This document shows, piece by piece, positions 29,866-50,370 of a stretch of DNA of 64,000 bases. The number at the start of each line of letters is the position of its first letter. Positions within the stretch are counted from its first letter, which is position 1. The position numbers and the translations under genes were made by a program. Below the pieces are notes generated by a model. It was given only the letters and a program-made list of their open reading frames with translations, was not told where the DNA came from and did not search any database. The DNA is from Daphnia pulex (Eukaryota; Arthropoda; Branchiopoda; Diplostraca; Daphniidae), in the NCBI RefSeq assembly GCF_021134715.1, contig NC_060024.1, forward strand, positions 14,000,974 to 14,064,973. The letters run 5' to 3'.

Positions 29866-30059
29866 GTAAGTTTGACCAAAAATTAACAAGACCAAAATTT
29901 AAAAAAATATGAAGAGTAGGAAATGATTCTCCAGTTTACTATTTTGGGAATCCCATTATTAGATAAGTCAACTCGATTTTCTTTCCTATAGTTTCTGTAT
30001 GACTTACATTTGAATCTTTTCTATTGTCGCAGGAATATTTTAATCCAATCCATTTGAAA

Positions 30060-31508
30060 ATGGCCGATTCTGATGTTTCCAAATCTGGCGGAAAGGAAGA
30101 CAACGCAGAAGAAAACCAGTCTGAGCATTCGTCCATCAAAACCATCATAGTGTCACACGCTCTGGCCGCAGTGGCTAAAGTCGTTGGCGAAGATGAACTG
30201 GCCAAACAGTGCTTATTGGAGGGTGGCAGCAACACGGAACAACCGGAAGAGGCACCAACCGATGATGAAGTCATAGACAAACACGACACTCAAGTCGTCG
30301 AGAAAGAAGAAGAAGAAGAAATCAAATCAGATGTTCGATCGACGGTCGTTCACGCCGCCGGGGCTGTTGGGGGACTTTTGGGCGGGTCAATCGGAGCGGC
30401 TGCAGCGGGTGCCATTGTCGGAGTCGTTTGTGATCTGGGCACGGCCATCGTCACAGGCGGAGAAGAAATGACTGGCATTTGTGAAATCATCAAAGATCCC
30501 ACCCATTTGGAATCCTGGGTCGACGGAGTGTCGAGTGTCGTCAGCGACGGACTGGCAGGAGTCGCTGGGGGCCATCAGACGGAAACTCCGGCGCCAACTG
30601 AATCCGCAACTGATGAGCCAACAGAAAAACCCAAAGTGGAAGAAGAAGAAGAAGCAAAAGTCAAGTCAGCACCAGAACCGAAAAAGAGTTTCAAAAAGAA
30701 AAGCAGTAAAAAGTCAATGGACAATGATTCAACCCCGGCAGACCAAGACCTTGTGCGCATCTACGACATTTCCCCGCAGACAATGAGGAAGATTCTGAAA
30801 GAGGCCGGAATAGCTTTACCGGATTATCAAGGCGGTCGATCAGCGTCTGACCTCGTTGAAGAATTACAGCGACTGATAGAAACGACTAAAAACGGGTCGT
30901 TCACTTTGCCTTCCTATTTCCAATTGTTCGATGGTTTGCACGAACTGGTGACTGTCCATAAGGCGACGATCGGAAACACGAGTCCGTCGTCCATCACGCT
31001 CACCGTCGCTTCGGCATCTGTGTGCTTTGATGAAACTCTGAAACGCTTCATAACAAATCTCCTCCTGCCCATTCACGCCACCAACAAAGTCCCGCTGGAA
31101 GAAGTGGCCAATGACAAGAAATTCCACTGCATCTACCGATTCCGCTGCACCGTTTGCGCCCGCCAGGGGAAGGAATTCAATAGCGTCGGTCGATCCAAGA
31201 ATTTCAAGCCTCGGTTCGAAAGCCACACGGGAAAAACGTTGCGGGATTGGATGGATCGCGAGGAGAGGATGTCGGCCCTACAGAAAGGAAATCTACTCAA
31301 AGGATTCGCACGCAAGACGTCGTCTGCTCTGTACGACCATCCAGCGCACAGTCACCCGGACGTGGCAAAGTTTAGCGACGTGCTCGAAGTGGACATCATC
31401 CACCGTTTCTCCGATAGCGACAAGGACAAAACGATTCGGAGCAGCTGGGAATTGTTCAACCAATGGCTCTTTAAATCAATTGAAAACGAAACTGACGTCG
31501 GCCCTTAA
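30060..31508 (+). CDS. Glycine-zipper / GIY-YIG-like protein, short paralog, Tyr-to-Ser in YIG position
   Basis: A single coding exon of 482 residues begins at the ATG 28 bases after the acceptor at 30032. The N-terminus is acidic. Residues ~94-137 are a hydrophobic glycine-zipper segment (GAVGGLLGGSIGAAAAGAIV), then a single WVDGVSSVVSDG unit. A Glu/Lys-rich linker and a conserved helical region (QDLVRIYDISPQTMRKILKE) follow. The C-terminal domain has CIYRF (357-361), then N-S-V-G at 374-377 where paralogs have V-Y-V-G, Arg385, His389 and Glu464. The order and spacing of Tyr, Arg and His fit GIY-YIG nucleases, except that the second Tyr is Ser. The nuclease call is inference from motif spacing. 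Glycine zippers often mark membrane-inserting helices. AATAAA is at 31629-31634. Confidence 0.85.
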   Translation: MADSDVSKSGGKEDNAEENQSEHSSIKTIIVSHALAAVAKVVGEDELAKQCLLEGGSNTEQPEEAPTDDEVIDKHDTQVVEKEEEEEIKSDVRSTVVHAAGAVGGLLGGSIGAAAAGAIVGVVCDLGTAIVTGGEEMTGICEIIKDPTHLESWVDGVSSVVSDGLAGVAGGHQTETPAPTESATDEPTEKPKVEEEEEAKVKSAPEPKKSFKKKSSKKSMDNDSTPADQDLVRIYDISPQTMRKILKEAGIALPDYQGGRSASDLVEELQRLIETTKNGSFTLPSYFQLFDGLHELVTVHKATIGNTSPSSITLTVASASVCFDETLKRFITNLLLPIHATNKVPLEEVANDKKFHCIYRFRCTVCARQGKEFNSVGRSKNFKPRFESHTGKTLRDWMDREERMSALQKGNLLKGFARKTSSALYDHPAHSHPDVAKFSDVLEVDIIHRFSDSDKDKTIRSSWELFNQWLFKSIENETDVGP

Positions 31509-32558
31509 GTGCTGATTCCCAAATAACGTTGACGTTCTCAAATGACTTTTTGTGCGACATTATTAGCTTTTCTGTTTTTATGTGGCCAATTTTTGTTTTC
31601 GTTTCTCGCTTTTTTAATTTCTCGCTTCAATAAACCCAGACACTTTCCACCCTTAACCTACACTGATTGCTTTTAGTTGACTGAAACATGTTTCGAATCT
31701 TTTGGCTGTCGACTCGCTGTTGAGAAAGGGAAAGAAACTGCGCACTGAACGAAACGAAACGAACGCGGCGTGAAGGTCGTTTCCATTCTACCCAGGGCTG
31801 ACGTTATCTTTTATGTTGCAGCGAGATGTCGTTGGCCATAAAAGTGGAGATGGGCCTATTTCAAAACAAGCTCGTCACTTGTTGTGGCACAGCAGTGCCA
31901 AATAAACTCTGCCGTAACCTTGGATGAATGTTGACAACTTTGACTATAGTCTATAGTCAAGACTTTCACTTAAGAGAGAGAAAAATAAGAGGACTCGACA
32001 TTTTCAAAATGCGATAACTTGGCCAATTTCGACGGAAAAGATCAGCGCTAGTATGAAATCCCTCGCTACTTCATATCGTTCGTTCATTTCACTTTTGGGA
32101 ATAGAGTCCTACCTTTCGACAAGGACGGCTGGCGACGGCTAGTGACGGGTGTGTTGGTTCACGAGGGATGTAGTAAGGGTCTTCTGTCACAGCGGATCCG
32201 AACGAAAGAAGAAGAAGCAGACAGAGGTACACATGTAGAATTGTCGATGACTGGTGAAACTGTCGTGATGGCGCAATGGGGAGGTCCTTCTTCCGGTATT
32301 CTTCATTTTATGATTTTCTGCAATTGGAATAATTGAACAACATGAAATTGGGTCAACAGCGAATGCAACTAAAACAATTTACAAAGGTCGAAACGATTTT
32401 AAATTTCAATTGCTAAAAAATATCGCTCTTCGCTTTTCATTTGTTTTCGTTCGACATCAACCCATTCGTTTTGGGTCGTATCGCGTTTCTGGGGAGTTCA
32501 ATATCCTAAACCAAAAGGAATTCAATAAAAAAAAGAAGAAAAAGATAATAGTAAAAAG
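31509..32558. other. 3' flank shared with the 41.3-42.1 kb region
   Basis: After the poly(A) signal (31629-31634) the sequence is a diverged copy of 41400-42090 (TTTTGGGAATAG, CTGCAATTGGAA, GGAGTTCAATATCCTAA). This marks the old block duplication. A perfect 10-base-arm palindrome (TTGACTATAG/CTATAGTCAA) is at 31939-31959. No gene is supported. Confidence 0.5.
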
Positions 32559-32726
32559 ATGCAAAGGGCTGGCGGTGAATCCGAAAAAGTGGTAGAACAA
32601 GATTTGGAAGTTCAAGGTACTCGTTAGCTTCTCCCTTAATTATTTTGTCAATTTGCCCAAGGGGCGTCCATCGTCTACTGTGGCGAACTCAAAGTACAAA
32701 TCCAAGAAGTTATTCAGAAGCGGTTG
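32559..32726 (+). CDS. Orphan two-exon coding fragment
   Basis: ATG at 32559; exon 32559-32616 joins exon 32662-32726 in phase across a 45-base GT-AG gap, which is very short for an intron. The encoded 40 residues (MQRAGGESEKVVEQ, then YCGELKVQIQEVIQKRL) end at a GTGAGT donor with no convincing next exon before protease 3. It may be a truncated gene fragment or chance. No family is recognised. Confidence 0.22.
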
Positions 32727-32812
32727 GTGAGTGAAACGATCAAAAGGCCAAAAGGGATCTGCAACTGCTGAAGTGCATAGGGACTAGGATATTTGATTTC
32801 CTTTTTCAAAAA

Positions 32813-34567
32813 ATGGACAAATCCCAATTCTGTCATTTAACGGCATCAACTGCTTTCTTCTTAGTGTCCGTTCTCCTAATACTGTCCTCCCTTCCGGTTA
32901 GCAAAGGATTCTACGATGCAGTCATCATCGAAGGTGAGAATCTGATTCCGTCCTCTAGTAATTCGGCACATGCAAACAAATGCATGACCAATAATTGTGC
33001 AAAATAAGATTTCCTCTAAAATAGGAAAAGAAATAAAGAATAACGCGAATTAAAAATTAATTTACTCAAATATAATGCGATTGTCCCTTTCCGTGTACGT
33101 CAACTGGATATTCCAGTTCCACGTTATTAAAGTAATTAAAATTTAAAGAAGAAGAAAAAGGCACCCAGAAAGTTGAAATCACGACGTTGTTGGAATGTTC
33201 TCTAAACTTGTCTAACTTGCTATTGAATTCTCAACTGTATACAACACTGTTTCGTCGATTACAGCCGGAAATATTGGCGGTCCATTCGATCCTTACGCGG
33301 AATTTTATTACGGGACAAGGAACTTTCATTGGTGGCTAAATAATCCGTACAGGATGGCCGGCATACCCACCGGCGTGTCCCACGACTACAGGCAAACCAT
33401 CGCTTGCGGCGCTGGCCCATTGAAAACTTACAGTTTCGATACTCACCGAATCGTCGGAGGAGTCGATGCTGCTAGGAACGCTTGGCCTGGCATCGTGAGT
33501 TTATATTCGCAACACAATTCGTTTACGGCCACTATTCTAACGACTGACGAGTTCTCTCCAGGTGGGGCTCCGATTAAACGGTGGATTTTTCTGTGGGGGG
33601 TCTCTGATTGCTCCGACTAAGATCCTGACAGCCGCTCACTGCCTCACCGGGTAAATTTGTTGAAATGAATAATAATAATAAAAAAAGCTTTCTTCCCTGA
33701 TTGATGGATTGTAGGATTAAGAGAGCAGACATTCCCAATTTGACCGTGGATTTGGGAATGCACGTTCGGAGCCCAAGCGACGCCCAGGTGACCAAAAATG
33801 TCCGTAAAATAGCGATTCATTGGGCATTTAACTCAATAACTTATGTAAGCATTAACACATTTTCGATTGGGTTAAATCGGGTAAAAAAACTGTAGCGCTA
33901 TGCATTTCTTGTGCTAGGCCAACGACATCGCCATCATTACCCTTTCGTCACCCGTGACTTACACGTCAACCATTTCGCCCGTCTGTTTGGCAAATTCCAA
34001 CGACCAATTCGCAGACCAAGAGGCAGCCATCATCGGATGGGGAACAACGTCAGAAGGTGACACGCCATCAATGAACATCATTAAAGAAAAACAAAGACAT
34101 ATTTCTGGCTTAATTAATTGTAGGTGGGTCTTTGTCGTCTGTGCTGCAGCAAGCTACCGTTAAAGTCACAACCAATGCACAATGCAAAACCAGTTACTCA
34201 ACCCTAGCCACAAGCATGCTCTGTGCCGCTGCACCTGGAAAAGACACCTGTCAGGTAACCGAAACTTGACAAGAAACTCAGTCGCAAAAAAATCAATTAA
34301 ATGGTGTGTTCTGTAGGGAGACAGCGGCGGTCCACTTCTCGTCCGATCCGCACCAGGATCACCGTGGACTCAGGCTGGAATCGTCAGCTTTGGTAACGGT
34401 ACGTAATCAAAATAATTATTCTATTCAGTTTTAATTCATTGGCCTCGCTTCTATTATTTGACAAAACGTTTCATCCAATTACAGGATGCGCCAGACCTGG
34501 ATTCCCAGGTGTTTACACCAGAGTGTCATCATACGGAATGTGGATTTGGAAACACTCGCTATTCTAA
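32813..34567 (+). CDS. Trypsin-like serine protease 3 (no clip domain)
   Basis: Exons: 32813-32933, 33265-33494, 33562-33650, 33715-33844, 33918-34056, 34124-34254, 34317-34398, 34485-34567; 334 residues. The N-terminal hydrophobic stretch is a signal peptide, followed by [10 protein letters not shown], a shortened form of the family motif. The linker has [10 protein letters not shown], and the Cys of ACGAGP precedes R|IVGG. The triad is TAAHC, NDIAII and GDSGGP, with DTCQGDS for Arg/Lys specificity. Intron 1 (331 bp) still resembles intron 1 of clip protease 4, but no clip exon is recognisable. The gene lies between the 30.1 kb GIY-YIG-like gene and its decayed transporter neighbour, a position where the younger block has no protease. 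Confidence 0.93.
33102..33118. promoter_or_regulatory. kB-like palindrome in intron 1 of protease 3
   Basis: AACTGGATATTCCAGTT is a palindrome with perfect 7-base arms and a 3-base centre. Its core resembles a kB half-site pair and aligns with elements in introns 1 of proteases 2 and 4. Confidence 0.4.
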
Positions 34568-34839
34568 ACGCTGTCGCGAAGAAAAACAAAAAACGATCAA
34601 TTTGACCTTTTGGATATCCTTATTCAACTAGAATTCCTATCTTTATTTAACTCAAGAAACAATTAAATGGTCGTTAAGTTAATTCAGTCCTAAAATCCTT
34701 AATGATATGTCGCAGGATTTCTTTTTGCGGCAATAATCAGTAGGCCTACGGTGTCAAAAAATAATAATTTGGTTATGAAACTTACCCGAATGAAGAATGA
34801 AATCGCCGAGGAGCTGATTCGTTGGTTCTCATCTGCGGT

Positions 34840-35590
34840 CAGCAGACACAGCAAATATCACATCGCGGATGATCCATCACTGAAAGTTGTCGATGAAAAA
34901 ATGAATGAACAGAATAAAATCTTTCATCACCAACGACAACTGTCCTTGAATAGAAGCTACGATAGTCGTCGTTCCGAGTTGATTTGGATACATTATGATG
35001 GACGTTCCTGCAAAACATAAAAAAATGGCTTTCATTGATTCATAGATAAATTACACAATTCTGGGGTAATCAATGCCATCATGCCACCATCACGAGAGGA
35101 TACTTTAATTCAAACATATAATAATATTTAAAAATTGGTGTATACCTGTTAGTCAGGTGACATGAATTGCATGCTTTCAATCATAATTTTCTTCTTCTGA
35201 TGTTTGGAGCTTCTACTTGAAGTTTCAATTGCCTAAGTTATGCAAAATAGATGATTAAGGACAAATCCTTTGATAAACTTGTGGTGTGAACACTTCTACT
35301 CACACTGGGTAATCTATTGGTGACATGGTTTAAAAAAATTACACATAATTGTTTTCCTATAATTGTCACATTAACAAGCCACAAAAGTGAATACTGAAAA
35401 CATCTGTGGAGTCACACAGGTAGTATGTGTTATTAAGAGTGACAGAAAACTAAATAGAATAGAAAAAACTATATTACCTGTTCATGAAAGTTTCCTTCTG
35501 TAACGCATTTGGATCTCGGATAATACAACTCATTTTGAACGTTCTGATGAAGGCATGACGTCTAGCAAGTCTCAGATTGAAAACCAAAAA
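34840..35590 (-). pseudogene. Decayed MFSD6-like transporter relic
   Basis: 34941-35004 is a clear diverged copy of 43105-43170 in exon 6 of the minus-strand transporter (CCTTGAATAGAAGC, AGTCGTCGT, CATTATGA). 35021-35115 matches the exon border and intron that follow (AATGGCTTYCATTG, ATCACGAG). 34845-34915 matches 42385-42475 outside the gene. At 35548-35585 a stretch resembles the 5' end of that gene (GCAAGTCTCAGATTG versus GCAAATCTGCAATTG). Most exons are gone and frames are broken. It is the partner that would have accompanied the 30.1 kb gene. Confidence 0.6.
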
Positions 35591-36554
35591 ACCAAAAAAC
35601 ACTTCGGTTAGAAATTCCTGCAGAAAGAAACGGTGAAATTTAGAGTAAGACCCTATAACAATAATTTCATAATGGTTAAAATTCCTACATACCGGTATTC
35701 CAATTTCCAGCATTTTTATTTGCAAGATCTCGTCCAGTCGTCCGTCGGTACCGTCACTTGGAGAATGCGGACTGTGGACTTGGAGAATAATGAATTGATT
35801 TGCACTCTAGCGGGAAAAGGATTATTTTTATTAGAAGTAGAAAACTGGACAACTTGAACCTGGCTACTGGTAAACACATTTTCATTTCGACAGGTGTTTC
35901 AGATGTTGAACTACAAAACCACATTGCTGCTTTGAGGGGTAACTCATGCTGCTGTAAGGGATTGCAATCGGCTGCCTTTTTGTTGTGAGTAAATCACGAG
36001 ATGGGACTAAAAACCCTTAGCGCAGATTTCCACAAAATAAATTTAAACAAAAAAAAATAAACTTTTGGTCTGCTTAAATAACGACTACTTGTCAATCATT
36101 GTATAAGCTCCCAATGACATTTTCAAATTTTCCTTTTATGTAAGACCTTCTTATGTCCCTAGATGCCAGCCATTTATCATTCAAGATTGGACGACTTTTT
36201 TTGTTTTGTCTCTTATCATTATTTAATACTTCTGAGTTTCAACAAACAAAAGAGGCGCCTTGGCATAATTTGAAACTGTGACCGATCACTGAAAAGGACC
36301 AATTTGACGACCAAAAAGGGACACGAGAGCCCAACTGACTGATATGCTATTGGAAATCCCATAAACAAAAGACCAATCGACCCGTGTGTTGATAACAAAG
36401 CAAGAGACCAGCAGGATCACAAACAAACCTTGGCGATTACGACTTTGACGTAAAGCAAAGTTAAACAGATAAACAGCAGCTTTCAATCTAATTTTCAAGT
36501 TGGTATCGTACAAATCTTAATAAAACAGGGGGGAAAAGGCAACAGCTATTCCAT
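35591..36554. other. Intergenic, AT-rich
   Basis: No supported gene. The part from about 36290 to 36540 shows blocks shared with 29290-29400 (AAACAAAAGACC, CGACCCGT, GTTGATAAC), which suggests conserved promoter sequence of the two GIY-YIG-like genes. Confidence 0.4.
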
Positions 36555-36818
36555 ATCTACTCAACATCAGTTGTTTCTAGATCTCTAAAGCGTTTTGAGA
36601 AGGATCTTGTTTTTACATTTGACCAGACGCCACCTCAGCAATTTGTCAGACTACTTCCATTCGGGAAGGAACTTAATCGTCAAACAGGACTCATCAAACA
36701 GCATCTGCACGATTTCCCGACCGACTTTCGTTGCCTTTCACGTTCCACGTCACGTCAAGCGCAATACTGGCATCAGTCTTTCCAGCAGCGACTTCGGAGA
36801 AATAGACTTGCTCAACAA
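36555..36818 (+). promoter_or_regulatory. Initiator and non-coding first exon of the 37.2 kb GIY-YIG-like gene
   Basis: TCAACATCAGTT (36561-36572) is shared with the paralog at 29.4 kb. The exon ends at 36818 before GTAAGTTT. The acceptor GTGGCAG at 37038 matches GTCGCAG at 30032 in the paralog. The exon has no long frame. Conservation in blocks fits a transcribed 5' UTR. Confidence 0.6.
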
Positions 36819-37224
36819 GTAAGTTTTACCAATGATAACAACCAAAATAGTAATATGTTAGTTAATTTAAGAATTAAGACTAAGAACTATTTCTCCAAAA
36901 TCCATTTAAAACTAATACAAGTTAGAACAGTAAACTCGATTCTTTCTCTATCCTCTTATCTATTTGATAATTGATAAACGATGATAAGCATGAAGCGATT
37001 TAGATCGTAAATCAAAAGAAAATTTTGTTTTGTGGCAGGAATCTTCATTCGTATAAAAATCGCGGATGTTTCTGAAATCAAACTTGTCGAGAAAGAGTCG
37101 CTAGGCAATCAAACGGAAACTACACAGCGCCAACTGAATCCGCAACTGAGCCCACAGGAATTAATCCAAAAGTCACGTGACCATAATTTCGCATAATATA
37201 AAAAAAAAAAAAAAAACTTAAAAA

Positions 37225-40200
37225 ATGAGCTTGAAAATTAGTCTGAAAAAGAAGAAAAAGCCGGATTTGGATTCAAATCCCCAAGACGCTAGCAACGATG
37301 ATGAATTGCCCAAAGAGTGCTCAGAGAGTGACGCCACAGAGGGAAAGCCGGATGAAGCAGCAGATAAAGTCATTGATGAAGTCGAAGATGAAGTCAAAGA
37401 AGAAGTCGAAGATGGAGTCAAAGAAAAAGGTAAATTGAAAGAAAAAGTCAAAAGTAAAGATAAAGACAAAGTCAAAGAGAAAGTCAAGAAAGCAGAGGGC
37501 AAATCGAAGGGCGCTGGAGCCTTTGGAAGCCTCTTTGGCAAGAAAGTCGCAGCGGCTGCAGAGGAAGCGGTTGGTGATCCGGACAAGGCCAATGCAACAA
37601 TTGAAGAAGACTTGTCTGGCATTGATGAAATAATCAAAGATCCAAATAACGTGGATTCCTGGATCGACGGAGTATCACAAGTCGTTGATGGATCGATCGA
37701 CCAAAAGGAAACTGAATCCGCGACTGAGTCAGAAGAAGAAGCAAAGGGTACGTTACCAGATACGAAAAAGAGCAAGAAAATGAGCCGAGGAATGAGCCTG
37801 AAAAGGAAGAAAAAGCCAGATTTGGATTCGAATCCACAGGACGATGGGAAAGAAGACCAATTGCCCAGCAAAGATTGTCTGGAGAGTGAAACCACAGAGG
37901 AAAAACCGGATGAAGCAGCGGATGAAGTCACTGATGAAGTCGAAGATAAAGTCAAAGAAAAAGGTAAAGTCAAACATAAAGATAAAGACAATATCAAGGA
38001 GAAAGTCAAGAAAGCAGAGGGCAAATCAGAAGTTCGATCGAAGGGCGCCTTTGGAAGTCTTTTTGGCAAGAAAGTCGCAGCAGCTGCAGAGGAAGTGGTT
38101 GGTGATCTGGACAAGACCGTTTCAACAATTGGGGAAGACTTGTCTGGCATTGGTGAAATGAGCAAAGATCCAACTAACGTGGATACCTGGATAGACGGAG
38201 TATCAAGTGTCATAAACGACGGATCAGCAGAAGTAACCGATGGAGTAGCAGAAGTCGTAAACGAAAAATTGGCAGAAGAGCAATCAAAAGTCACGTCACC
38301 AGATACGAAAAAGAGCAAGAAAATGAGCCGAGGAATGAGCCTGAAAAAGAAGAAAAAGCCAGATTTGGATTCGAATCCACAAGACGCTGGCAAAGAAGAT
38401 GAATTGCCCAGCAAAGAGTGCTTGGAGAGTGAAACCACAGAGGAAAAATCGGATGAAGCAACGGATGAAGCAGCGGATGAAGTCATTGATGAAGTCGAAG
38501 ATGAAGTCAACGAAAAAGGTAAAGTCAAACATAAAGTCAAAAGTAAAGAAAAAGTCAAAAGTAAAGACAAAGTGAAAGATGAAGTTCAAGGTGTTGAAGA
38601 CGCCAAACCTATCAAGAAAGCAGATGGCAAATCAGAGAATCGATCGACGTTCACTGGAGCCATTGGAAGCCTTTTGGGTAAGAAAGTCGCAGCAGCTGCA
38701 GAGAAAGCGATTGGTGATCTGGACAAGGCCATTGCAACAATTGGAGAGGAGCTGCCTGGCATTGATGAAATAATCAAAGATCCAAATAACGTGAATACCT
38801 GGATCGACGGAGTATCACAAGTCGTTGATGGATCGATTGACCAAAAGGAAACTGAATCCGTGACTGAGTCAGAAGAAGACGAAGAAGCAAAAGTCACGTC
38901 ACCGGAACCGAAAAAGAGCCTGAAAATGAGTCTGAAAAAGAGCAAGAAAAAACCGGATTTTGATTCAGAATCACAAGACGCTGGCAAAGATGATGACATC
39001 CTAGAGGAGAAATCGGATGAAACTGATGATAAAGTCACTGAGGTAATTGAAGGTAAAGTGAATGTTACAGTCAAAAGTAAAGATAAAGTTAAAATAAAAG
39101 TCAAGGATGTCGAAGACACCAAAGTTGTCAAGAAAGTGGATGGCAAATCGACGTTTGCTGGAGCCATTGGAGGCCTTTTTGGCAAGAAAGTCGCAGCGGC
39201 TGAAGAGGGAGTGGCCACAGGCGGAGAAGACCTCGTAAGCGACAGACTAGCAGGAGTCGCTGATGGTAATCAAACGGAAACCGATTCCTCGACTGAGTTA
39301 GAAGAAGAAGAAGCAAAAGTCAAGTTACCAGAACCGAAAATGAGCCGGAAAATGAGCCGGAAAATGAGCAAGAAAGTTCTAGGTACAGATGATGAATTGG
39401 CCAAAAAGTGCTTGGAGGATGGCAGTAACACGGTACAACCGGAAGAGGCCGATGGAGAGGCCGATGGAGTCACCGATGGAGTCACCGATGAAGACCTGGG
39501 AGACACAGATGTAGTCAAAGATGTAATCAAAAGCAAAGCCAAAAGTAAAGCCCAAAACAAAGTCAAAGTTGCCAAAAACGTAAAAGGTGACAAAGATGAA
39601 GATGAAGAACGTAAAACGAAAAGTAAAGGCAAAAGCAAAGTTAAACTTGACAAGAAAGTAAAGGGAGATGAAGTTGAAGACCAAGTTGAAGATGAAGCCG
39701 TAGATGAAGTCAAACGTAAAGCCAAAAACAAATCTAAAGTTGGCAAGAAAGTAGAAGCTGATGAAGACGAAGATTTAGAAGTAGAAGTAGAAGAAGAAGA
39801 CTCGGACTTGGACGAAGATGAAGTCAATCATAAAACCAAAAGCAAAGTTGGCAAGAAAAGACAGAACAAAAAAGTTCGAACGGCGGTCGTTTCCGTGAGT
39901 AAAGCTGTCGGAGGTATTATTGGCGGGCAAATCGGATCGGCTGCAGTTGGTGCCATTGTCGGAGCCGTTTACGACGTGGGCACGGCCATTGCCACACGCG
40001 GAGATGAGATGAATGGCATTTGTGGAATAATCAAGAATCCAACGAACGCCGATTCCTGGATCGAAGGAGCATCAAGTTTGACTAAAGACACACAAGATCA
40101 AAACATTTTTGGCAGTGAATCGGAAAGTGAACCATCGCCCGAGTCAGAAGAAGAGAGGACGCCAAAACGGAAAAAGAGTCTGAAATCAAGTAAGAGCATG

Positions 40201-41271
40201 CAGAAGTCAATGGAAGTCGATTCAGACCCAGTAGACCAAGACCTTGTGCGCATCTACGACATTACCTCGCAGACAATGAGAAAGATCCTGAAAGAGTCCG
40301 GGAACACTCTACCGGAATATCAAGGCGGCCGATCAGTGTCTGCCCTCGTTAAGCAATTGCAACGACTGACAGAAATGGCCAAAAACGAGTCGTTCACTTT
40401 GCATTCCTATTACAAACTTTACGACAGTCTGCACGAACTGGTGACCGTCCATAGAGCAGAGTTCCTAATGACAAGCCCATCGACCATCACGCTCGCCGTC
40501 GATTCGGAATCCGTTTGCTTCGACGACAACCTGAAGCGCTTCATAGCCAAACTTCTCCTGCCCGTTCACGCCGCCCACAAAGTCCCGTTGAAAGACGTTG
40601 CCAACGACAAGAAATTCCACTGCATCTACCGATTCCGCTGCATCATTTGCGCTCGCCACGGAAATGAATTCGTCTACGTCGGCCAATCGAAGAATTTCAA
40701 GCCCCGATTCGAAAGCCACACGGGACAGATGTTGCGCGATTGGGTAAAAAGTGAGGAAAGGTCCACACTGTCGATAGGAATTCCCCTCGCAAAATCCACA
40801 CCCCGAAAGTCGTCGTCTACTGTATTCGACCATCCAGGGCACTGCCACCCTGACGTGGTAGTAAAGTTTAGCGAGATCCTCGAAGTGGACATAGTCCATC
40901 GTTTTATCGAAATCAACAAAGACAAAACAATTCGAAAAAACTGGGAAACATTCAGTCAGTGGCTCTTCAAATCAATTGAATACGATGACGACGATGACGA
41001 CGACGACGACGAAACTGAAAATGTTACTGAAAATGAAAATTTAACTGAAAATGCAAAAGAAACTGCAAAAGAAAATGCAACTGAAAACGAAACTGAAAAT
41101 GCAACCGAAAATGGCACCGAAAATGGCACCCAAAACGCAACTGAAAAAGGAACTGAAAATTTACCTGAAAACTTAACTGAAAATGGAACCAACAACCGAA
41201 CCGAAAGCGCAACTGAAAATTTAACTGAAAACGCAATTGAAAAAGAAACTGACGACGGCCCTGAGTTCTGA
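37225..41271 (+). CDS. Glycine-zipper / GIY-YIG-like protein, long paralog (1348 residues)
   Basis: A single open exon with its acceptor at 37038. The ATG at 37225 follows an A17 run; an earlier ATG at 37066 gives only 12 codons. The N-terminal ~890 residues are Lys/Glu/Asp-rich low-complexity with repeated units, each holding KKKKPDLDSNPQDA, a GAFGSLFGKKVAAAA segment and WIDGVS. Unit landmarks recur near residues 140, 317 and 520. Residues ~891-925 form a hydrophobic glycine zipper (VGGIIGGQIGSAAVGAIVG). The C-terminal domain has C1133-I-Y1135, V-Y1151-V-G, Arg1161, His1165 and Glu1241 (NWETF). This matches the order of GIY-YIG catalytic residues, with Arg +10 and His +14 from the second Tyr as in I-TevI. 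A run of 10 acidic residues and a Thr-Glu-Asn repeat tail end the protein. AATAAA is at 41375-41380. Cellular role unknown; nuclease activity is inferred. Confidence 0.88.
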   Translation: MSLKISLKKKKKPDLDSNPQDASNDDELPKECSESDATEGKPDEAADKVIDEVEDEVKEEVEDGVKEKGKLKEKVKSKDKDKVKEKVKKAEGKSKGAGAFGSLFGKKVAAAAEEAVGDPDKANATIEEDLSGIDEIIKDPNNVDSWIDGVSQVVDGSIDQKETESATESEEEAKGTLPDTKKSKKMSRGMSLKRKKKPDLDSNPQDDGKEDQLPSKDCLESETTEEKPDEAADEVTDEVEDKVKEKGKVKHKDKDNIKEKVKKAEGKSEVRSKGAFGSLFGKKVAAAAEEVVGDLDKTVSTIGEDLSGIGEMSKDPTNVDTWIDGVSSVINDGSAEVTDGVAEVVNEKLAEEQSKVTSPDTKKSKKMSRGMSLKKKKKPDLDSNPQDAGKEDELPSKECLESETTEEKSDEATDEAADEVIDEVEDEVNEKGKVKHKVKSKEKVKSKDKVKDEVQGVEDAKPIKKADGKSENRSTFTGAIGSLLGKKVAAAAEKAIGDLDKAIATIGEELPGIDEIIKDPNNVNTWIDGVSQVVDGSIDQKETESVTESEEDEEAKVTSPEPKKSLKMSLKKSKKKPDFDSESQDAGKDDDILEEKSDETDDKVTEVIEGKVNVTVKSKDKVKIKVKDVEDTKVVKKVDGKSTFAGAIGGLFGKKVAAAEEGVATGGEDLVSDRLAGVADGNQTETDSSTELEEEEAKVKLPEPKMSRKMSRKMSKKVLGTDDELAKKCLEDGSNTVQPEEADGEADGVTDGVTDEDLGDTDVVKDVIKSKAKSKAQNKVKVAKNVKGDKDEDEERKTKSKGKSKVKLDKKVKGDEVEDQVEDEAVDEVKRKAKNKSKVGKKVEADEDEDLEVEVEEEDSDLDEDEVNHKTKSKVGKKRQNKKVRTAVVSVSKAVGGIIGGQIGSAAVGAIVGAVYDVGTAIATRGDEMNGICGIIKNPTNADSWIEGASSLTKDTQDQNIFGSESESEPSPESEEERTPKRKKSLKSSKSMQKSMEVDSDPVDQDLVRIYDITSQTMRKILKESGNTLPEYQGGRSVSALVKQLQRLTEMAKNESFTLHSYYKLYDSLHELVTVHRAEFLMTSPSTITLAVDSESVCFDDNLKRFIAKLLLPVHAAHKVPLKDVANDKKFHCIYRFRCIICARHGNEFVYVGQSKNFKPRFESHTGQMLRDWVKSEERSTLSIGIPLAKSTPRKSSSTVFDHPGHCHPDVVVKFSEILEVDIVHRFIEINKDKTIRKNWETFSQWLFKSIEYDDDDDDDDDETENVTENENLTENAKETAKENATENETENATENGTENGTQNATEKGTENLPENLTENGTNNRTESATENLTENAIEKETDDGPEF

Positions 41272-42784
41272 TTCTTAAATATTTCGCATGTTAAAGTTAA
41301 TGACCAACAAGACTTTTAACACATTGATTTTCTTTTTTAGATGGCCATTTTGAGTTTTCTTCATTTTTTGTTTCAATAAACCGACCAAGAAAAGTATACT
41401 TGTGTTGTTATGTTGTATGTGTTGTTATTCCTTTGTGTAGATTCGAATCCTGACTGGCTGTTGCTGCAGTAAAAAGAATCTGCGCATGTAAAGAAACGAA
41501 CCCAAAAGTAGTGTGAAGGCCATTTCCGTTCTTATGTGAGAAGCTCAAAATTTATCAGAAATTTGATGCAATGAGCAATTTTCTACTAGCCAGCAATCAC
41601 ACCACTTGACCGCAAAAGATAAAAATGCGCTAAAATAAAATCCTTCGCTACTTCAAATCGTTAATTTCACCCGCATTTCACTTTTGGGAATAGATCCTAC
41701 CTTTCAACAAGGGTGGTGGGGACGACTGGTGACGGCGTGTTAGTTACGGCTGCTGCAATTCCCTTTTTGTGTTGCTGTGACTCTGAAGGACAGAAGAAGC
41801 AGCAGACAGAGGACCACAATTGAGATGGACTGGTAGTACCGTCGTGCCGATGACTCAACGGAAGGAAGGTGCCCAGCTCTTCTGGCATTCTTTATCTCTT
41901 CCTTTTCTGCAATTGGAAAATTGGACAACATGGAATGTGGTCAACAACGAATGTAGTAAAAGAATTTTAAAATTTCAAAAGATGAAAAAATATTTCCACT
42001 CTCTTTTCGACTCGATTTGCTTTCGTTCGAAATCTCACTCGTTTTGGGACGCCAGGAAAAGGAGTTCAATATCCTAAGCCAAGAGGAATTCCATGCAACT
42101 GGCTGGTGATGAATTAGGAAAGCGGTAAATTGCGGAAACCGTATAGTCAAAAATAGTGAAAATTAGGAACGAAAATAGGAGAAGAGATTAAGCATAAAAT
42201 GAATAATACCGCTGTATAACAATTCAGTCCGCTTTGGTCGTCAAATGATGCGTCTGCCAAATTTCTTTTTCACCCCTTCTTTCTACGGTGGCAGTCGGTA
42301 GCCGCCCGGCGGAAAATAAAAATCATTTGGTTCTTTGATGGCACTTACCCCAATCAGGAATTAAGTTGCCGATTCTCCGGTCAGCAGGACACAGCACATA
42401 GACGCATCGCGGATATTCCATGCCTGAAAGTTGTCGATGCAAAAAAAAAAATGCTGAATGAATGTTGAATGAAATCTTTCACGAACATCCACATCGCCGG
42501 AATCAGACTGAATTGAACTCGACATGCTACAGCACTTAACCAGTCGGAACAGTCAAACGAAGAATACCTATTGGTATGCAAGGAAGCTTATTAAACTCAA
42601 AATCACTTGCGCGTTCTATTTCATCTTGTTTCAGCCAATCTTACGTAAAAATCACAAATACTTTGATCACATTTTTAGACAACTTCAGCAATTGAAGCAA
42701 GACGCTGGATTAGTAGTCAAAGAGACATACGAATTAAATAAGGGTGGATTTTCATCTGGAATTTTTTTAAAAAAAGGAGGGGGG
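41272..42784. other. Region between converging genes, unit 1
   Basis: Poly(A) signal of the GIY-YIG-like gene at 41375-41380, then sequence also found at 31.7-32.5 kb (older copy) and 48.9-50.4 kb (recent copy). No gene is supported. A G-rich run lies right after the transporter stop (42776-42784). Confidence 0.5.
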
Positions 42785-45257
42785 TTACTGGGAAGTCTCG
42801 ATCTTCCCGTTCAAACCTAAGCGGGCATTGCTCTCGGTTATTTGCTGGTTTTTCTTTGGACGCAAGTACAAAAAATTAAAGAGCAAGTAGATGAACCCAG
42901 CGATGAACGACATGACACCCAACACGCGGAAAGTCACTCGCTGTCCGTACGCGTCAATAAGTAGGCTTCCGCCATAGCTGCTTACTCCCCAGCCTGGAAT
43001 GCGAAAAACAATCAGTAAATGAACGCACCGCGTATTCTATAAAAAAAAGAGTAAATAAGAATGTCTTCATTAAATAACCTAGTCCGAAAGTGATTCCTGA
43101 TAACAGTCCTTGAATAGAAGCCACGTTAGTCGTCGTCCCTAGCTCATTTGCATACGTTATGAGCGCCGTGCGTATAAGAGTACTGGAAATGGCTTCCATT
43201 GGCTCAAACAGAAGACACAAGTTCGGGTCGGACAAAAACGAGTATCCTTCATCATGCGACAATCACGAGGGGATAATTCAATTTAAAAATAAAAAAGCAA
43301 CAATGCAGTGAACGATGTATACCTATGAATCGGATCATGCCTGCTCCAAAGCAGATAGTTATTACATTTGGGTGGCTCAGCTTTCGAAAGATGCGGTCAG
43401 AAAAGATGAGCAACGGGATAGAAGCTAACGACTGGAGCGTGTTGGATAGCCCCATCAAAGATTTGGTACCCCCAATCTCTTCCAAAAAGGGAAAAGTCCA
43501 GAAAATCCCGTAACCATGGGCGATTCCTGATATGACATAAAGAGCAATAAACGATAAATCAGGCTATATAGTGCGTTCTTTTAACATGCTCTAGTCACTA
43601 TTGATTTACCTGAAATGAAGCCGGCGAACAACAAAAGGTCCAATTCGACGTTTTTCAACAAAGATGTCACATCTTTGAATGGAGATTTCGCTGGAAGTTT
43701 AAAATCAAGATTGATCTTCAACATGACGATGGCTGCAATTGTAAATAAACCAGCAAATAGGTAGAAAGCCGGCCTGAAGAATTATGGATTACAACGATTA
43801 CATTCTTTTCTCCTTTTTTTTAAATAAATAAAATGAAATAAATTAAAATATCGATTACCGTATATTCCCTTGAATGTTGGAATCCGAGCTGAAATAGTCA
43901 ATCAAGGCTCCAGAAATTGGAGAGAAAATGGCGACCCCAATAAATCCAAACATTCTCTGGAAACCGTAATCGCCGCCTACTTGGTTAACCAGTGCTACGG
44001 ATGCTGCAACAAAGAGATCCAGCACTCCGCAAGACGTGTCAAACAACAAGCGAACAACCATGTATAGTCCGAACGTGAGCTTAGGATCGATGTTTTCGTA
44101 TTCAGCCATATTAGAGCACAAATCGGAGCGATTGACACGAACAAAGCATTCTGGCTTGCAAATTTGGTAGACGGTGTTGTTGCTGTGGTCCGTTTGATTG
44201 ATGTCTTGGTAATGGATATTCTGCCGGAACTTGTGATTTCTATTGTTGGATGTACAGTAGACATTTTTCATCTGCTGTTCGCCTTCGCTATCCACAGCGA
44301 TCAATGGTAAGGAGAACATGCTGGTTGATTTGGCAGATGGAACTAGACCAAAGGTGAAATTCAATGATACTTTTGTGGAGTAATCACTTGAGAAGGAGCA
44401 AGTATCTACTTCGCCCAAGAAGCAAACCAAACCCAGAGTCCAGTTTTGGGAAAAGAAAACAGAATCACGGAAATGGGTCGCGGGAAGTTCCTCGACATCG
44501 AACATTTCTTGCGTTGGCATGGGATTGGCGTCTAAATCGAAGTGATCCTGCGATCGATTTTGGTTGTAGCAGACGTAACCGCATTCTTCGAGTACGGCCG
44601 GGAAATGAGTTGCACTTTGGTTGCCTTTGGGTGATTTCAAGTGGCACGTAGTCGAGTCGAGGTCCATCACATCAGGAATTGGTAAACGATAGTCGCTCGT
44701 TTCGTTTCCACATCCAACTGCCAACGTCATGCTATCCGGGAACTTGTGCGGGATTCTTCCGACTGGGATGACGACGAAGAGAAGTGATACAGCAACCACA
44801 ATCGTGGTCAGTACGCACATCATCACCTGAATCAAAGTATTGAAATCAATCAAACAAAGATACTCATCTAATGAGTGGAATATGTTACCTTGAAATTTCC
44901 AACTTTATCGGCGATCAAGCCAAGGAAGAAAGGCGCAAAAACGGCTGCAACTGAAGAAACACTGTTGATTATGCCCGTCTCTTCGACGGTCATTCCCAAC
45001 GATTTCATGTGGATGGTGATGAAAGAGAATAGCGATCCTATACCTATACGATGGACAAAAGAAAAGAGTTTTTACTTTATTCGCTAAACAAAAACGGAAC
45101 AACACTGCCTACCTGCAAAAAGGATAAAGGTCAGAACTTTCACCGGAATCAACTCGCGATGCTTCAAGTCGTAAATGAGCAAAGCCAATCCTTTCCTCTT
45201 CACATCAGTTGCAGCAGGTTCTCTTCTCGAGTTGTCGTTGAAATCATTTTCGTCCAT
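42785..45257 (-). CDS. MFSD6-like MFS transporter, copy 1
   Basis: Minus-strand exons: 45257-45113, 45043-44889, 44826-43859, 43773-43610, 43526-43323, 43246-43079, 42993-42785; 670 residues, phases fit. It begins MDENDFNDNSRREP, then LTFILFAGIGSLFSFITIHMKS and SVSSVAAVFAPFFLGLIADK, the MFSD6/MFS_1-like opening. A large Cys- and N-glycosylation-rich extracellular loop follows (~residues 115-310). Later signatures are LFDTSCGVLDLFVAASVAL, GDYGFQRMFGFIGVAIFSPI, GIAHGYGIFWTFPFLEEIG, LLFEPMEAIS and GLLSGITFGLG. The tail is ITESNARLGLNGK. It is shorter than MFSD6 at 7.7 kb and has different introns. Substrate unknown. A 5' UTR exon is inferred at 45723-~45990. The first copy's native upstream region is cut off by the duplication junction at 46031. 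Confidence 0.9.
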
Positions 45258-45722
45258 GAGGCTGTGTCGTCTGGCAAATCTGCAATTGAGAGAAGGCAAT
45301 CAAATCAGAGTCAAAAAGTGTAGGAGCGATTCAATACAAACGAATGTCGCAAATGTTGGATTGCAAATAACAACAGAAATATATAAAATACTCGGACAGT
45401 TACGGATTGAAGGGTGAAAGCGAACCCGTTGTCGGCCGCCACAGGCTAAATGGCGAACAGAGGGCGAGCGGGGATTACCATAGATATTTTGGCACAAGCA
45501 AACTGTTAAAATAAATATATTGGTTTTTCTGTCAACGCAATGTGGAAAGACCGGTATTTTGGAACACAACATTGCCACGCTGGGAAAAATAAACAGGGCA
45601 TGGCTTATTCGCCAGTTGCGGTACTCGACAACCTTCAAGTCAAGTGAATGACAAAAATAGACTTGGAACAGAGGTTACAATCAAGAACTCGATTAGTTAC
45701 ATCATCATCATTTTTAACTTAC

Positions 45723-46013
45723 CAGTTGATCTGTTGGAAGCGAGATTTATTCCAGCATGTAACACAACAAGTCTGGTAGAAGTAAAAACTTCCAATAAAC
45801 AGCGAAGAATTCCAGCAGATAAGCGGAGTAATTTCGAGCGTGGGGATTGCCTCTATTGCCGTTCGTGTCGCAAGAATAACTGCAGTTTTGAGCAATGTAG
45901 AGTTGGCGAGCCATTTTCTGCAACAGGAGAGAGAAAATACGGTACTTTGAACTTTGGATTTTTAGTCATCTCGAACACCTGCGCGATTATTCAATGTGTG
46001 TGGCTATATTTAA
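45723..46013 (-). promoter_or_regulatory. Non-coding first exon and TATA-like element of transporter copy 1
   Basis: On the minus strand a donor (ATCAACTG|GTAAGT) at 45722-45718 and an acceptor (AATTGCAG) at 45281-45280 imply a 5' UTR exon upstream of the ATG exon. TTAAATATAG (46001-46010) is TATA-like; copy 2 has TTAAATGTAG there. The duplication junction is only about 20 bases further upstream. Confidence 0.4.
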
Positions 46014-46040
46014 GGAAAATGCCTTCAAGCAGAAGATGAA

Positions 46041-48941
46041 TTGCCCAGCAAAGAGTGCTTGGAGAGTGAAACCACAGAGGAAAAATCGGATGAAGCAACG
46101 GATGAAGCAGCGGATGAAGTCATTGATGAAGTCGAAGATGAAGTCAACGAAAAAGGTAAAGTCAAACATAAAGTCAAAAGTAAAGAAAAAGTCAAAAGTA
46201 AAGACAAAGTGAAAGATGAAGTTCAAGGTGTTGAAGACGCCAAACCTATCAAGAAAGCAGATGGCAAATCAGAGAATCGATCGACGTTCACTGGAGCCAT
46301 TGGAAGCCTTTTGGGTAAGAAAGTCGCAGCAGCTGCAGAGAAAGCGATTGGTGATCTGGACAAGGCCATTGCAACAATTGGAGAGGAGCTGCCTGGCATT
46401 GATGAAATAATCAAAGATCCAAATAACGTGAATACCTGGATCGACGGAGTATCACAAGTCGTTGATGGATCGATTGACCAAAAGGAAACTGAATCCGTGA
46501 CTGAGTCAGAAGAAGACGAAGAAGCAAAAGTCACGTCACCGGAACCGAAAAAGAGCCTGAAAATGAGTCTGAAAAAGAGCAAGAAAAAACCGGATTTTGA
46601 TTCAGAATCACAAGACGCTGGCAAAGATGATGACATCCTAGAGGAGAAATCGGATGAAACTGATGATAAAGTCACTGAGGTAATTGAAGGTAAAGTGAAT
46701 GTTACAGTCAAAAGTAAAGATAAAGTTAAAATAAAAGTCAAGGATGTCGAAGACACCAAAGTTGTCAAGAAAGTGGATGGCAAATCGACGTTTGCTGGAG
46801 CCATTGGAGGCCTTTTTGGCAAGAAAGTCGCAGCGGCTGAAGAGGGAGTGGCCACAGGCGGAGAAGACCTCGTAAGCGACAGACTAGCAGGAGTCGCTGA
46901 TGGTAATCAAACGGAAACCGATTCCTCGACTGAGTTAGAAGAAGAAGAAGCAAAAGTCAAGTTACCAGAACCGAAAATGAGCCGGAAAATGAGCCGGAAA
47001 ATGAGCAAGAAAGTTCTAGGTACAGATGATGAATTGGCCAAAAAGTGCTTGGAGGATGGCAGTAACACGGTACAACCGGAAGAGGCCGATGGAGAGGCCG
47101 ATGGAGTCACCGATGGAGTCACCGATGAAGACCTGGGAGACACAGATGTAGTCAAAGATGTAATCAAAAGCAAAGCCAAAAGTAAAGCCCAAAACAAAGT
47201 CAAAGTTGCCAAAAACGTAAAAGGTGACAAAGATGAAGATGAAGAACGTAAAACGAAAAGTAAAGGCAAAAGCAAAGTTAAACTTGACAAGAAAGTAAAG
47301 GGAGATGAAGTTGAAGACCAAGTTGAAGATGAAGCCGTAGATGAAGTCAAACGTAAAGCCAAAAACAAATCTAAAGTTGGCAAGAAAGTAGAAGCTGATG
47401 AAGACGAAGATTTAGAAGTAGAAGTAGAAGAAGAAGACTCGGACTTGGACGAAGATGAAGTCAATCATAAAACCAAAAGCAAAGTTGGCAAGAAAAGACA
47501 GAACAAAAAAGTTCGAACGGCGGTCGTTTCCGTGAGTAAAGCTGTCGGAGGTATTATTGGCGGGCAAATCGGATCGGCTGCAGTTGGTGCCATTGTCGGA
47601 GCCGTTTACGACGTGGGCACGGCCATTGCCACACGCGGAGATGAGATGAACGGCATTTGTGGAATAATCAAGAATCCTACGAACGCCGATTCCTGGATCG
47701 AAGGAGCATCAAGTTTGACTAAAGACACACAAGATCAAAACATTTTTGGCAGTGAATCGGAAAGTGAACCATCGCCCGAGTCAGAAGAAGAAGAAGAAGA
47801 GAGGACGCCAAAACGGAAAAAGAGTCTGAAATCAAGTAAGAGCATGCAGAAGTCAATGGAAGTCGATTCAGACCCAGTAGACCAAGACCTTGTGCGCATC
47901 TACGACATTACCTCGCAGACAATGAGAAAGATCCTGAAAGAGGCCGGAATCGCTTTACCGGAATATCAAGGCGGTCGATCAGTGTCTGCCCTCGTTAAGC
48001 AATTGCAACGACTGACAGAAATGGCCAAAAACGAGTCGTTCACTTTGCATTCCTATTTCAAACTGTACGACAGTCTGCACGAACTGGTGACCGTCCATAG
48101 AGCAGAGTTCAAAATGACAAGCCCATCGACCATCACGCTCGCCGTCGATTCGGAATCCGTTTGCTTCGATGACAACCTGAAGCGCTTCATAGCTAAACTT
48201 CTTCTGCCCGTTCACGCGGCCCACAAAGTCCCGTTGAAAGACGTTGCCAACGACAAGAAATTCCACTGCATCTACCGATTCCGCTGCATCATTTGCGCTC
48301 GCCACGGAAATGAATTCGTCTACGTCGGCCAATCGAAGAATTTCAAGCCTCGGTTCGAAACCCACACGGGGCAGATGTTGCGCGATTGGGTAAAAAGTGA
48401 GGAAAGGTCCACACTGTCGATAGGAAATCCACTCGCAAAATCCACACCCCGAAAGTCTTCGTCTACTGTATTCGATCATCCAGGGCACTGCCACCCTGAC
48501 GTGGTTGTAAAGTTTAGCGAGATCCTCGAAGTGGACATAGTCCATCGTTTTATCGAAATCAACAAAGACAAAACAATTCGAAGAAACTGGGAAACATTCA
48601 GTCAGTGGCTCTTCAAATCAATTGAATACGATGACGACGATGACGATGACGACGACGAAACTGAAAATGTTACTGAAAATGTTACTGAAAATGAAAATTT
48701 AACTGAAAATCTATCTGGAAATGCAAAAGAAACTGCAAAAGAAAATGCAACTGAAAATGCAACCGAAATTGGAACCGAAAATGAAACCGAAAATGGCACC
48801 CAAAACGCAACTGAAAAAGAAACAGAAAATTTACCTGAAAACTTAACTGAAAATGGAACCAACAACGGAACCGAAAGCGCAACTGAAAATTTAACTGAAA
48901 ACGCAATTGAAAAAGAAACTGACGACGGCCCTGAGTTCTGA
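46041..48941 (+). CDS. N-terminally truncated copy of the GIY-YIG-like protein
   Basis: Starting at the duplication junction the frame is open from 46014 to the TGA at 48939-48941, equal to about 966 residues of the long paralog's C-terminal part. No in-frame ATG lies near the junction; the first is at 46563 (KMSLKKSKK), which would give 792 residues. A TTG at 46041 marks where homology becomes readable. It keeps the glycine zipper, the helical region, CIYRF, V-Y-V-G, Arg and His spacing, the WE motif and the Thr-Glu-Asn tail (longer here by some units). Compared with copy 1 it has two extra Glu in EEEEEER and an AGIALPEYQ version of one helix. Whether it is expressed depends on an acquired promoter or splicing from upstream. 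It may be a young pseudogene with an intact frame. AATAAA is at 49046-49051. Confidence 0.75.
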   Translation: MPSKECLESETTEEKSDEATDEAADEVIDEVEDEVNEKGKVKHKVKSKEKVKSKDKVKDEVQGVEDAKPIKKADGKSENRSTFTGAIGSLLGKKVAAAAEKAIGDLDKAIATIGEELPGIDEIIKDPNNVNTWIDGVSQVVDGSIDQKETESVTESEEDEEAKVTSPEPKKSLKMSLKKSKKKPDFDSESQDAGKDDDILEEKSDETDDKVTEVIEGKVNVTVKSKDKVKIKVKDVEDTKVVKKVDGKSTFAGAIGGLFGKKVAAAEEGVATGGEDLVSDRLAGVADGNQTETDSSTELEEEEAKVKLPEPKMSRKMSRKMSKKVLGTDDELAKKCLEDGSNTVQPEEADGEADGVTDGVTDEDLGDTDVVKDVIKSKAKSKAQNKVKVAKNVKGDKDEDEERKTKSKGKSKVKLDKKVKGDEVEDQVEDEAVDEVKRKAKNKSKVGKKVEADEDEDLEVEVEEEDSDLDEDEVNHKTKSKVGKKRQNKKVRTAVVSVSKAVGGIIGGQIGSAAVGAIVGAVYDVGTAIATRGDEMNGICGIIKNPTNADSWIEGASSLTKDTQDQNIFGSESESEPSPESEEEEEERTPKRKKSLKSSKSMQKSMEVDSDPVDQDLVRIYDITSQTMRKILKEAGIALPEYQGGRSVSALVKQLQRLTEMAKNESFTLHSYFKLYDSLHELVTVHRAEFKMTSPSTITLAVDSESVCFDDNLKRFIAKLLLPVHAAHKVPLKDVANDKKFHCIYRFRCIICARHGNEFVYVGQSKNFKPRFETHTGQMLRDWVKSEERSTLSIGNPLAKSTPRKSSSTVFDHPGHCHPDVVVKFSEILEVDIVHRFIEINKDKTIRRNWETFSQWLFKSIEYDDDDDDDDDETENVTENVTENENLTENLSGNAKETAKENATENATEIGTENETENGTQNATEKETENLPENLTENGTNNGTESATENLTENAIEKETDDGPEF

Positions 48942-50370
48942 TTCTTAAATATTTCGCATGTTAAAGTTAATGACCAACAAGACTTTTTAACACATTGATT
49001 TTCTTTTTTAGATGGCCATTTTAAGTTTTCTTCATTTTTTGTTTCAATAAACCGACTAATAAAAGTATACTTCTATATTTTTATGTGTTGTTATTCCTTT
49101 GTGTAGATTCGAATCCTGACTGGCTGTCGCTGAAGTAAAAAGAATCTGCATAAAGAAACGAACCCAAAAGTGGCGTGCAAGGCCATTTCCGTTCTTATGT
49201 GAGAAGCTCAAAATTTATCAGAAATTTGATGCAATTAGCAATTCTCTACTAACCAGCAATCCAACAACTTGATCACAAAAGATTAAAATCTTGCGCTAAT
49301 ATAAATTCCTTCGCTACTTCAAATCGTTAATTTCACCCGCATTTCACTTTTGGGAATAGATCCTACCTTTCAACAAGGGTGGTGGGGACGACTGGTGACG
49401 GCGTATTAGTTACGGCTGCTGCAATTCCATTTTTGTGTTGCTGTGGATCTGAAGGACAGAAGAAGCAGCAGACAGAGGACCACAATTGAGATGGACTGGT
49501 AGTACCGTCGTGCCGATGGCTCAACGGAAGGAAAGTGCCCAGCTCTTCCGGCATTCTTTATCTCTTCCTTTTCTGCAATTGGAAAATTGGACAACATGGA
49601 ATGTGGTCAACAACGAATGTAGTAAAAGAATTTTAAAATTTCAAAAGATGAAAAAATATTTCCACTCACTTTTCGACCCATTTGCTTTCGTTCGACATCT
49701 CACTCGTTTTGGGACGTCAGGAAAAGGAGTTAAATATCCTAAGCCAAGTGGAATTCCATGCAACTGGCTGGTGATGAATTAGGAATGCGGTTAATTGCGG
49801 GAACCGTATAGTCAAAAATTGTGAAAATTAGGAACGAAAATAGGAGGAGAGATCAAGCATAAAATGATAATACCTGTATAGCAATTCAGTCAGCTTTGGT
49901 CGTCAAATGATGCGTCTGCCAAATTTCTTTTTCACCCATTCTTTCTAAGGTGGCAGTCGGTGTAGCCACCCGGCTATACCTCTCGCATCGCGGATGATCT
50001 AAGCCTGAAAGTTTGTCGATGCAAAAAAATGCTGAATGAATGTTGAATGAAATATTTTATGAACATTCACAGCGCCGGAATCAGACTGGATTAAACTCGA
50101 CATGCTACAGCATTTTACCAGTCGGAACAGTCAAACGAAGAATACCTATTGGTATACAAGGAAGCTTATTAAACTCAAAATGACTTGCGCGTTCTATTTT
50201 GTTTCATCTTGTTTCAGCCAATCTTACGTAAAAATCACAAATACTTTGATCACATGTTTGGACAACTTCAGCAATTGTAGCAAAACGCTGGATTAGGTAT
50301 AGTCAAAGAGACATACGAATTACATAAGAGTGGATTTTCATCCGGAATTTAAAAAAAAGGGGGGGGGGGG
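48942..50370. other. Region between converging genes, unit 2
   Basis: Near-copy of 41272-42784 with small indels. Poly(A) signal at 49046-49051; a run of 12 G (about 50359-50370) touches the transporter stop. No gene is supported. Confidence 0.5.

Follow-up and report, generated by a model that had tools for sequence, protein, structure and literature searches.

Genes and features at the locus

The 64-kb stretch of Daphnia pulex DNA analyzed here (the window) lies on contig C8 and carries three related frames, at 30060 (gene A), 37225 (gene B) and 46041 (copy C), which are located where a sequence-only reading of the same DNA had placed them. Two further members of the family lie outside the window: locus D on contig C12, and locus E on the minus strand of C8, about 90 kb past the window. 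All features given below for A, B and C are on the forward strand. The earlier reading had assigned a single architecture to the three window genes (Lys/Glu-rich low complexity, a hydrophobic glycine zipper, a helical region and a C-terminal GIY-YIG-like domain). The frames stand, but the full set of catalytic residues is incomplete in A, and C is a truncated copy of B. Elsewhere in the window are a glycosyl hydrolase family 38 frame (1195-1929, +) and a leucine-rich-repeat frame (60502-61389, +).

Gene A (30060-31508; 482 aa) consists of one full zipper module (30336-30599, delimited by module comparison and hydropathy), a conserved helical domain (30747-31109, from alignments) and a GIY-YIG-like domain (31110-31505) with Y359, S375, R385, H389 and E464. 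The serine, in the sequence NSVG, replaces the tyrosine of the YIG motif. Introns in the 5'-UTR are predicted, by site scan and sequence alone, at 29866-30032 in A (GTAAGT donor, CAG acceptor, with several acceptors possible in the scan) and at 36819-37038 in B. Donors matching that of A are present at 36819 in B and, by eye, upstream of D. The first-exon region of B (36648-36789) matches that of A (29680-29821) at 74%. An AATAAA follows A at 31629, and an AATAAA or ATTAAA follows B at 41375.

Gene B (37225-41271) encodes 1348 aa from an ATG start and runs from charged repeats through a full zipper, a helical domain (40240-40602, by alignment) and a GIY-YIG-like domain (residues 1127-1253; 40603-40983; assigned from Pfam PF01541 and residue spacing) to an acidic tail. 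This tail, an Asp run followed by T-E-N repeats in 12-base units (40984-41268; tandem repeats at 41011-41252), ends both B and C and is absent from A. Its length differs between the two copies (40984-41268 in B, 48630-48938 in C). Long minus-strand frames at 37218-38570, 38586-39218 and 46223-46855 run antisense to the Lys/Glu-rich repeats in B and C, and look like composition artefacts rather than genes.

Family membership and conserved core

The genome scan covered 133.19 Mb in 13 contigs and scored the best candidates only, so that the family numbers at least five loci. With the C-terminal 260 residues of B as the query, five family places are found in the genome at E<=10: besides B itself, these are C (97% identical), A (66%), D (37%; E 3.7e-38) and E, the last at only E 0.40. 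Locus E is accepted as a member because searches with E itself and with D link it to the family: E as the query finds D at 1.2e-9 and A at 3.3e-4 (B and C only at 0.33 and above), and D as the query recovers E at 4.3e-9. Two other candidate places, L012 (E 0.26) and L022 (E 4.15), were judged on inspection to be unrelated or due to chance.

The core common to the family is the helical domain (about 120 residues) together with the GIY-YIG-like domain. The combination of zipper and domain is not the family's defining trait, because D has no zipper and that of E matches neither A's nor B's. Locus D is a 276-residue frame with a plausible 5'-UTR donor that resembles those of A and B by eye; no upstream coding exon is found among the listed frames. 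The distant relatives D and E share their final six residues, Gly-Gly-Gly-Ser-Arg-Arg (minus strand, L005 1474-1491 and L006 1486-1503), which are absent from A and B.

Searches of viral contigs (queries: the alignment, D and E) confirmed no relatives, and phage records searched with D only yielded none. A match in a planctomycete bin (L037), the one confirmed out of 57 stretches that matched the pattern, is attributed to chance: it is short and intergenic, in a frame bounded by stops at either end.

Zipper modules in the N-terminal half

A contains a single zipper module and B a set of five related ones, four of them degenerate (with charged residues within the zipper) and one full. The degenerate modules of B lie at 37501-37752 (module 1, with Lys-Lys within the zipper; z 21.8 against A's module), 38029-38280 (module 2; z 21.9), 38635-38892 (module 3, also found in copy C; z 23.2) and 39133-39324 (module 4; z 11.5). 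The full module 5 lies at 39877-40119 (z 30.9, hydropathy 1.64). Similarity between modules is well above that of shuffles (z 7.5 to 43), with the exception of modules 4 and 5 of B (z 2.6). The charged repeats of B are degenerate copies of the zipper module. Lys/Glu-rich low complexity had been described for all three genes; ahead of the domain, K, R, D and E make up 43% and 42% of residues in B and C, and A is less charged (30%).

The membrane-type character proposed for the zipper depends on the locus. Mean hydropathy of the GxxxG stretch is 1.99 in A (Kyte-Doolittle, a hydrophobic 19-mer at residues 106-124) and 2.11 in E, values at which a membrane zipper is plausible; B, at 1.64, is borderline, and D is without any zipper. 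The zipper could pack helices inside a membrane or between subunits, and hydropathy permits either for A and E. Homology of the E zipper to the others is undetectable (z 1.5 against A's, at most 2.6 against any module of A or B). D may have lost its zipper, and E may have acquired one independently.

Tandem duplication, copy C and selection

An older duplication shows in blocks around the two genes A and B, which match at 69-78%. A later tandem duplication has a first unit (38394-46030) that begins inside gene B and a second unit (46031-53618) whose first 1620 bases are identical to it, followed by 239 mismatches. Past the identical bases, divergence is about 1-7% per 500-base block; the alignment of the units contains 221 gap columns, about 42 of which overhang past 53618. 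Each unit carries one MFS_1_like transporter frame (43855-44853 and 51441-52595, both on the minus strand), and a third such frame lies at 8825-9829 (+); all three are over the Pfam cut-off.

In copy C (46041-48941), the upstream region and start of B and its zipper modules 1 and 2 are missing because the copied unit begins inside B, with a breakpoint at about residue 394; modules 3 to 5 are kept, as is the GIY-YIG-like domain (48249-48629) with its full residue set. The frame is listed from a TTG 10 bases into the second unit. From stop to stop it comprises 975 residues, opening a few codons ahead of the junction, and no in-frame Met occurs before residue 175. This truncated copy is a by-product of the later tandem duplication or of assembly.

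The helical and GIY-like region is under purifying selection. Between A and B, dN is 0.184 and dS 0.520 (dN/dS about 0.35), and between B and C, dN is 0.016 and dS 0.093 (dN/dS 0.17). Replacement changes are fewer than silent ones in both comparisons (p 1.7e-8 for A/B and 3e-5 for B/C; Fisher test on rounded counts). Silent sites are saturated, or nearly so, in comparisons with D and E. Because dN/dS between B and C is low, both would have been working copies for most of their divergence.

The abrupt drop in identity between the two units points to gene conversion in the recent past, to crossing-over of divergent haplotypes or to misassembly. There is a real possibility, if something short of an even chance, that copy C and the tandem duplication are artefacts of assembly in which a second haplotype was placed head to tail. 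An exactly identical stretch of 1620 bases that gives way to divergent sequence is what such a misplacement would produce, and the mostly silent difference between the B and C domains resembles that of two working alleles, not that of a dead copy. However, a real duplication with recent gene conversion, or one between divergent haplotypes, looks alike.

Catalytic residues and motif spacing

The first Tyr, the Arg, a His four residues beyond the Arg, and the Glu are present in all five loci, the Glu within an [SN]WE motif in each case. The YIG tyrosine is kept in B, C, D and E, so that four of the five loci retain the full set and A is a family member without it, a lack that the earlier reading had listed as counting against its proposal. 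The residues named earlier for the long protein (Y1135, Y1151, R1161, H1165 and E1241 in B) are all at the positions claimed. The distance from the YIG position to the Arg is +10 in A through D and +11 in E. Two cysteines lie between the GIY and YIG motifs at every locus, as CxxC (in B, for example) or, in D, as Cx4C. No Asn after the Glu is conserved in the family, and by eye D and E are without any there. The I-TevI reference (phage T4 locus L029, identified through PDB 1mk0/1ln0), when measured in the identical way, has the same Tyr-to-Arg (+10) and Arg-to-His (+4) spacing as B, as had been proposed.

A loose motif ([IV]Y, then Y/S/F-[VI]-G, R and H), defined post hoc after the sequences had been seen, has three matches in the 127,996 six-frame residues of the window, and these are A, B and C. 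Shuffling produces it in 7 of 200,000 trials for the C-terminal region of B and in 16 of 200,000 for that of D. A stricter motif, which demands the Tyr, an Arg at +10 and a final WE, is matched by B, C and D, whereas A and E fail it.

Profile searches and fold models

The Pfam GIY-YIG model PF01541 has a curated cut-off of 22.6 bits. D exceeds it (24.5 bits), B (18.5-22.0) and C (18.9-21.9) fall just under it, and A and E have no match at E<=10. When the model is run genome-wide in six frames, the matches at E<=10 are an SLX1-like exon (38.5 bits), D (23.4 bits, E 0.008), B (22.0, E 0.022), C (21.9, E 0.023) and L026 (21.0, E 0.042). L026, only 0.9 bits below C, has no recognizable gene in its frames and is treated as chance; B and C therefore lie near the noise genome-wide. 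Of the model's 78 positions, the Pfam matches cover only the initial 31-33. The NCBIfam group-I-intron endonuclease model matches B (E 0.008) and D (E 0.016) weakly, far below its cut-off, and PHROG endonuclease models also point weakly to GIY-YIG. PADLOC returned one match, to B (E 0.031).

Profile-profile comparison with a reference of I-TevI, one T4 domain and the SLX1-like exon gives a score of 31.3 over 27 columns (the GIY-to-His part), where the best of 100 column shuffles reaches 17.4; the composition of this reference was the analysts' choice, and the score is weaker than its number suggests. I-TevI alone gives 22.4, a value that stands without a shuffle control. Comparison with all eight T4 GIY domains gives nothing (10.1, with a best shuffle of 16.6).

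The proposed affinity to GIY-YIG draws support from sequence, and a three-stranded GIY-YIG fold is a putative one. AlphaFold models made from the three window sequences are of low confidence: mean pLDDT is 44.7 in the 248-residue core and 43.3 in the model of the isolated domain. Foldseek with the core model finds no match at E<=0.001. The helical domain of B has a mean confidence of 54-86 per block of ten over residues 11-100 of the 248-residue model.

Several other matches were set aside. The best PDB profile match, OxsA (E 0.0043), is borderline and extends from the helical domain into the one that follows. Weaker still are a designed helical protein (E 0.024) and dehaloperoxidases (E of at least 1.1), and a reverse-transcriptase fusion (E 9.8) matches the acidic tail only. 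The D domain alone has no match among PDB sequences. Matches to DUF6030 and C19orf12 in A, Zona_pellucida in D, FlgN in E, and phage tail proteins in A and E look compositional and are below curated cut-offs where one exists (Pfam, NCBIfam, PHROG).

Interpretation and alternatives

The preferred reading, with a probability of roughly 0.6, is that these loci form a host GIY-YIG-derived family of nuclease-like proteins under purifying selection, some members of which would carry an oligomerizing or membrane-associating segment. By sequence, the family seems to be a separate branch of an established group of nucleases. In GIY-YIG chemistry, as described for ANKLE1, Tyr and His activate water and Glu holds the metal ion (PMC10287932). 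In human ANKLE1, every active-site mutation lowered cleavage 60-fold or more (PMC10287932), and in a Penelope-type enzyme the substitution Y17A (I-TevI numbering), which removes the YIG tyrosine, eliminates cutting of DNA (PMC11167929). Both Tyr, the Arg, the His and the metal-binding Glu that GIY-YIG nucleases use for cutting DNA are present in B and D. Judged by these residues, B and D could cleave, most likely through a metal-dependent phosphodiesterase activity that they have now or lost only recently; A, with Ser at the YIG position, probably has impaired catalysis or none.

The glycine-zipper module ahead of the core in A and B most likely drives helix packing, which could mean self-association, membrane association or both, and would leave the C-terminal domain tethered or clustered. 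In B, the four extra modules would have decayed into charged and probably flexible repeats. Any cellular role, whether in DNA processing or in defence against foreign DNA, can only be guessed at, and the lean toward defence is slight and leaves that role unlikely. The effector or self/non-self role put forward in the earlier reading is speculative. A fuller scheme, in which a zipper-clustered or membrane-tethered GIY-YIG effector acts on foreign DNA and A dampens it by co-assembly, is very improbable.

An origin by capture is somewhat unlikely, though the best placed of the other accounts of the domain: it would have come from a mobile element, such as one with a Penelope-like GIY-YIG endonuclease, and then been domesticated. 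Penelope-like GIY-YIG domains typically have two cysteines between their motifs, a feature seen here at all five loci. Giant rotifer retroelements also carry stand-alone GIY-YIG genes (PMC6431247). Against capture, no reverse transcriptase family is matched in A-E (Pfam, E<=10, with filters that drop most weak matches), no clear Penelope-type match is present among the five candidates scored genome-wide with PF01541, and the copies are few.

A domain of GIY-YIG descent that is a nuclease no longer, and that binds nucleic acid or protein while its residues drift, is a doubtful proposition, a little more so than capture. It would accommodate the loss of the YIG tyrosine in A alongside an A/B dN/dS of about 0.35, the one-residue shift that E requires and the Pfam model misses, and the lack of a conserved C-terminal Asn. 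Yet D and B, only 36% identical, both have the whole set with the Tyr-Arg-His spacing of I-TevI. Convergence on the Tyr/Gly/Arg/His pattern in an unrelated fold, a view to which the two poor AlphaFold models, the match to less than half of the Pfam model, the post hoc pattern and the near-equal score of the chance-like L026 would lend themselves, is improbable given that D is over a curated Pfam cut-off, that only the SLX1-like exon outranks D, B and C genome-wide, and that the NCBIfam and PHROG endonuclease models weakly agree with GIY-YIG.

On the reading of a host nuclease-like family, its members seem to be a third kind of GIY-YIG-like protein in this genome, besides the SLX1-like and LEM-3/ANKLE1-type proteins. 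Their N-terminal half changes fast by internal growth of repeats, next to a conserved C-terminal half. Should B or D cut DNA, the family would provide a new animal nuclease, with a close paralogue that is without one catalytic residue for comparison.

Comparison with known GIY-YIG proteins

In the literature searched, no paper joins GIY-YIG with a glycine zipper. Among the matches listed for GIY-YIG and Daphnia, titles and the opening parts of abstracts describe no such genes, and the table rows shown of a survey of the GIY-YIG superfamily contain no such architecture (PMC1564403).

LEM-3/ANKLE1, a GIY-YIG protein of animals, resembles the family in the long extension at its N-terminus. Most animals have one LEM-3 gene. 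This genome has three separate LEM-3-type loci, on contigs C4 and C7 (matches L038-L043, several with internal stops in an intron-blind view). None of the eight genome-wide PF22945 matches lies at a family locus, and neither PF22945 nor ankyrin or LEM domains are matched in A-E (Pfam, E<=10).

SLX1 belongs to the GIY-YIG superfamily and, like the family, is without the C-terminal Asn, which marks the UvrC/I-TevI lineage (PMC1564403). Unlike in SLX1, no zinc-finger domain is seen downstream of the nuclease-like domain in this family. The SLX1-like gene of this genome is a separate locus (L001, contig C1), and its label is a putative one based on its sequence and an adjoining Cys/His-rich frame.

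Penelope-like elements may resemble the family in the cysteine pair of their endonuclease; they have a reverse transcriptase in the same frame, for which A-E show no Pfam match at E<=10. Unlike I-TevI, the family has no conserved Asn after the Glu and no DNA-binding extension that was recognized. I-TevI has the same Tyr-to-Arg and Arg-to-His steps as A through D (A with Ser at the YIG position), followed by a Glu further on, whereas its other intervals are shorter: GIY to YIG is 11 in I-TevI and 13-17 in the family, with the two Cys between, and His to Glu is 44 and 72-80, respectively.
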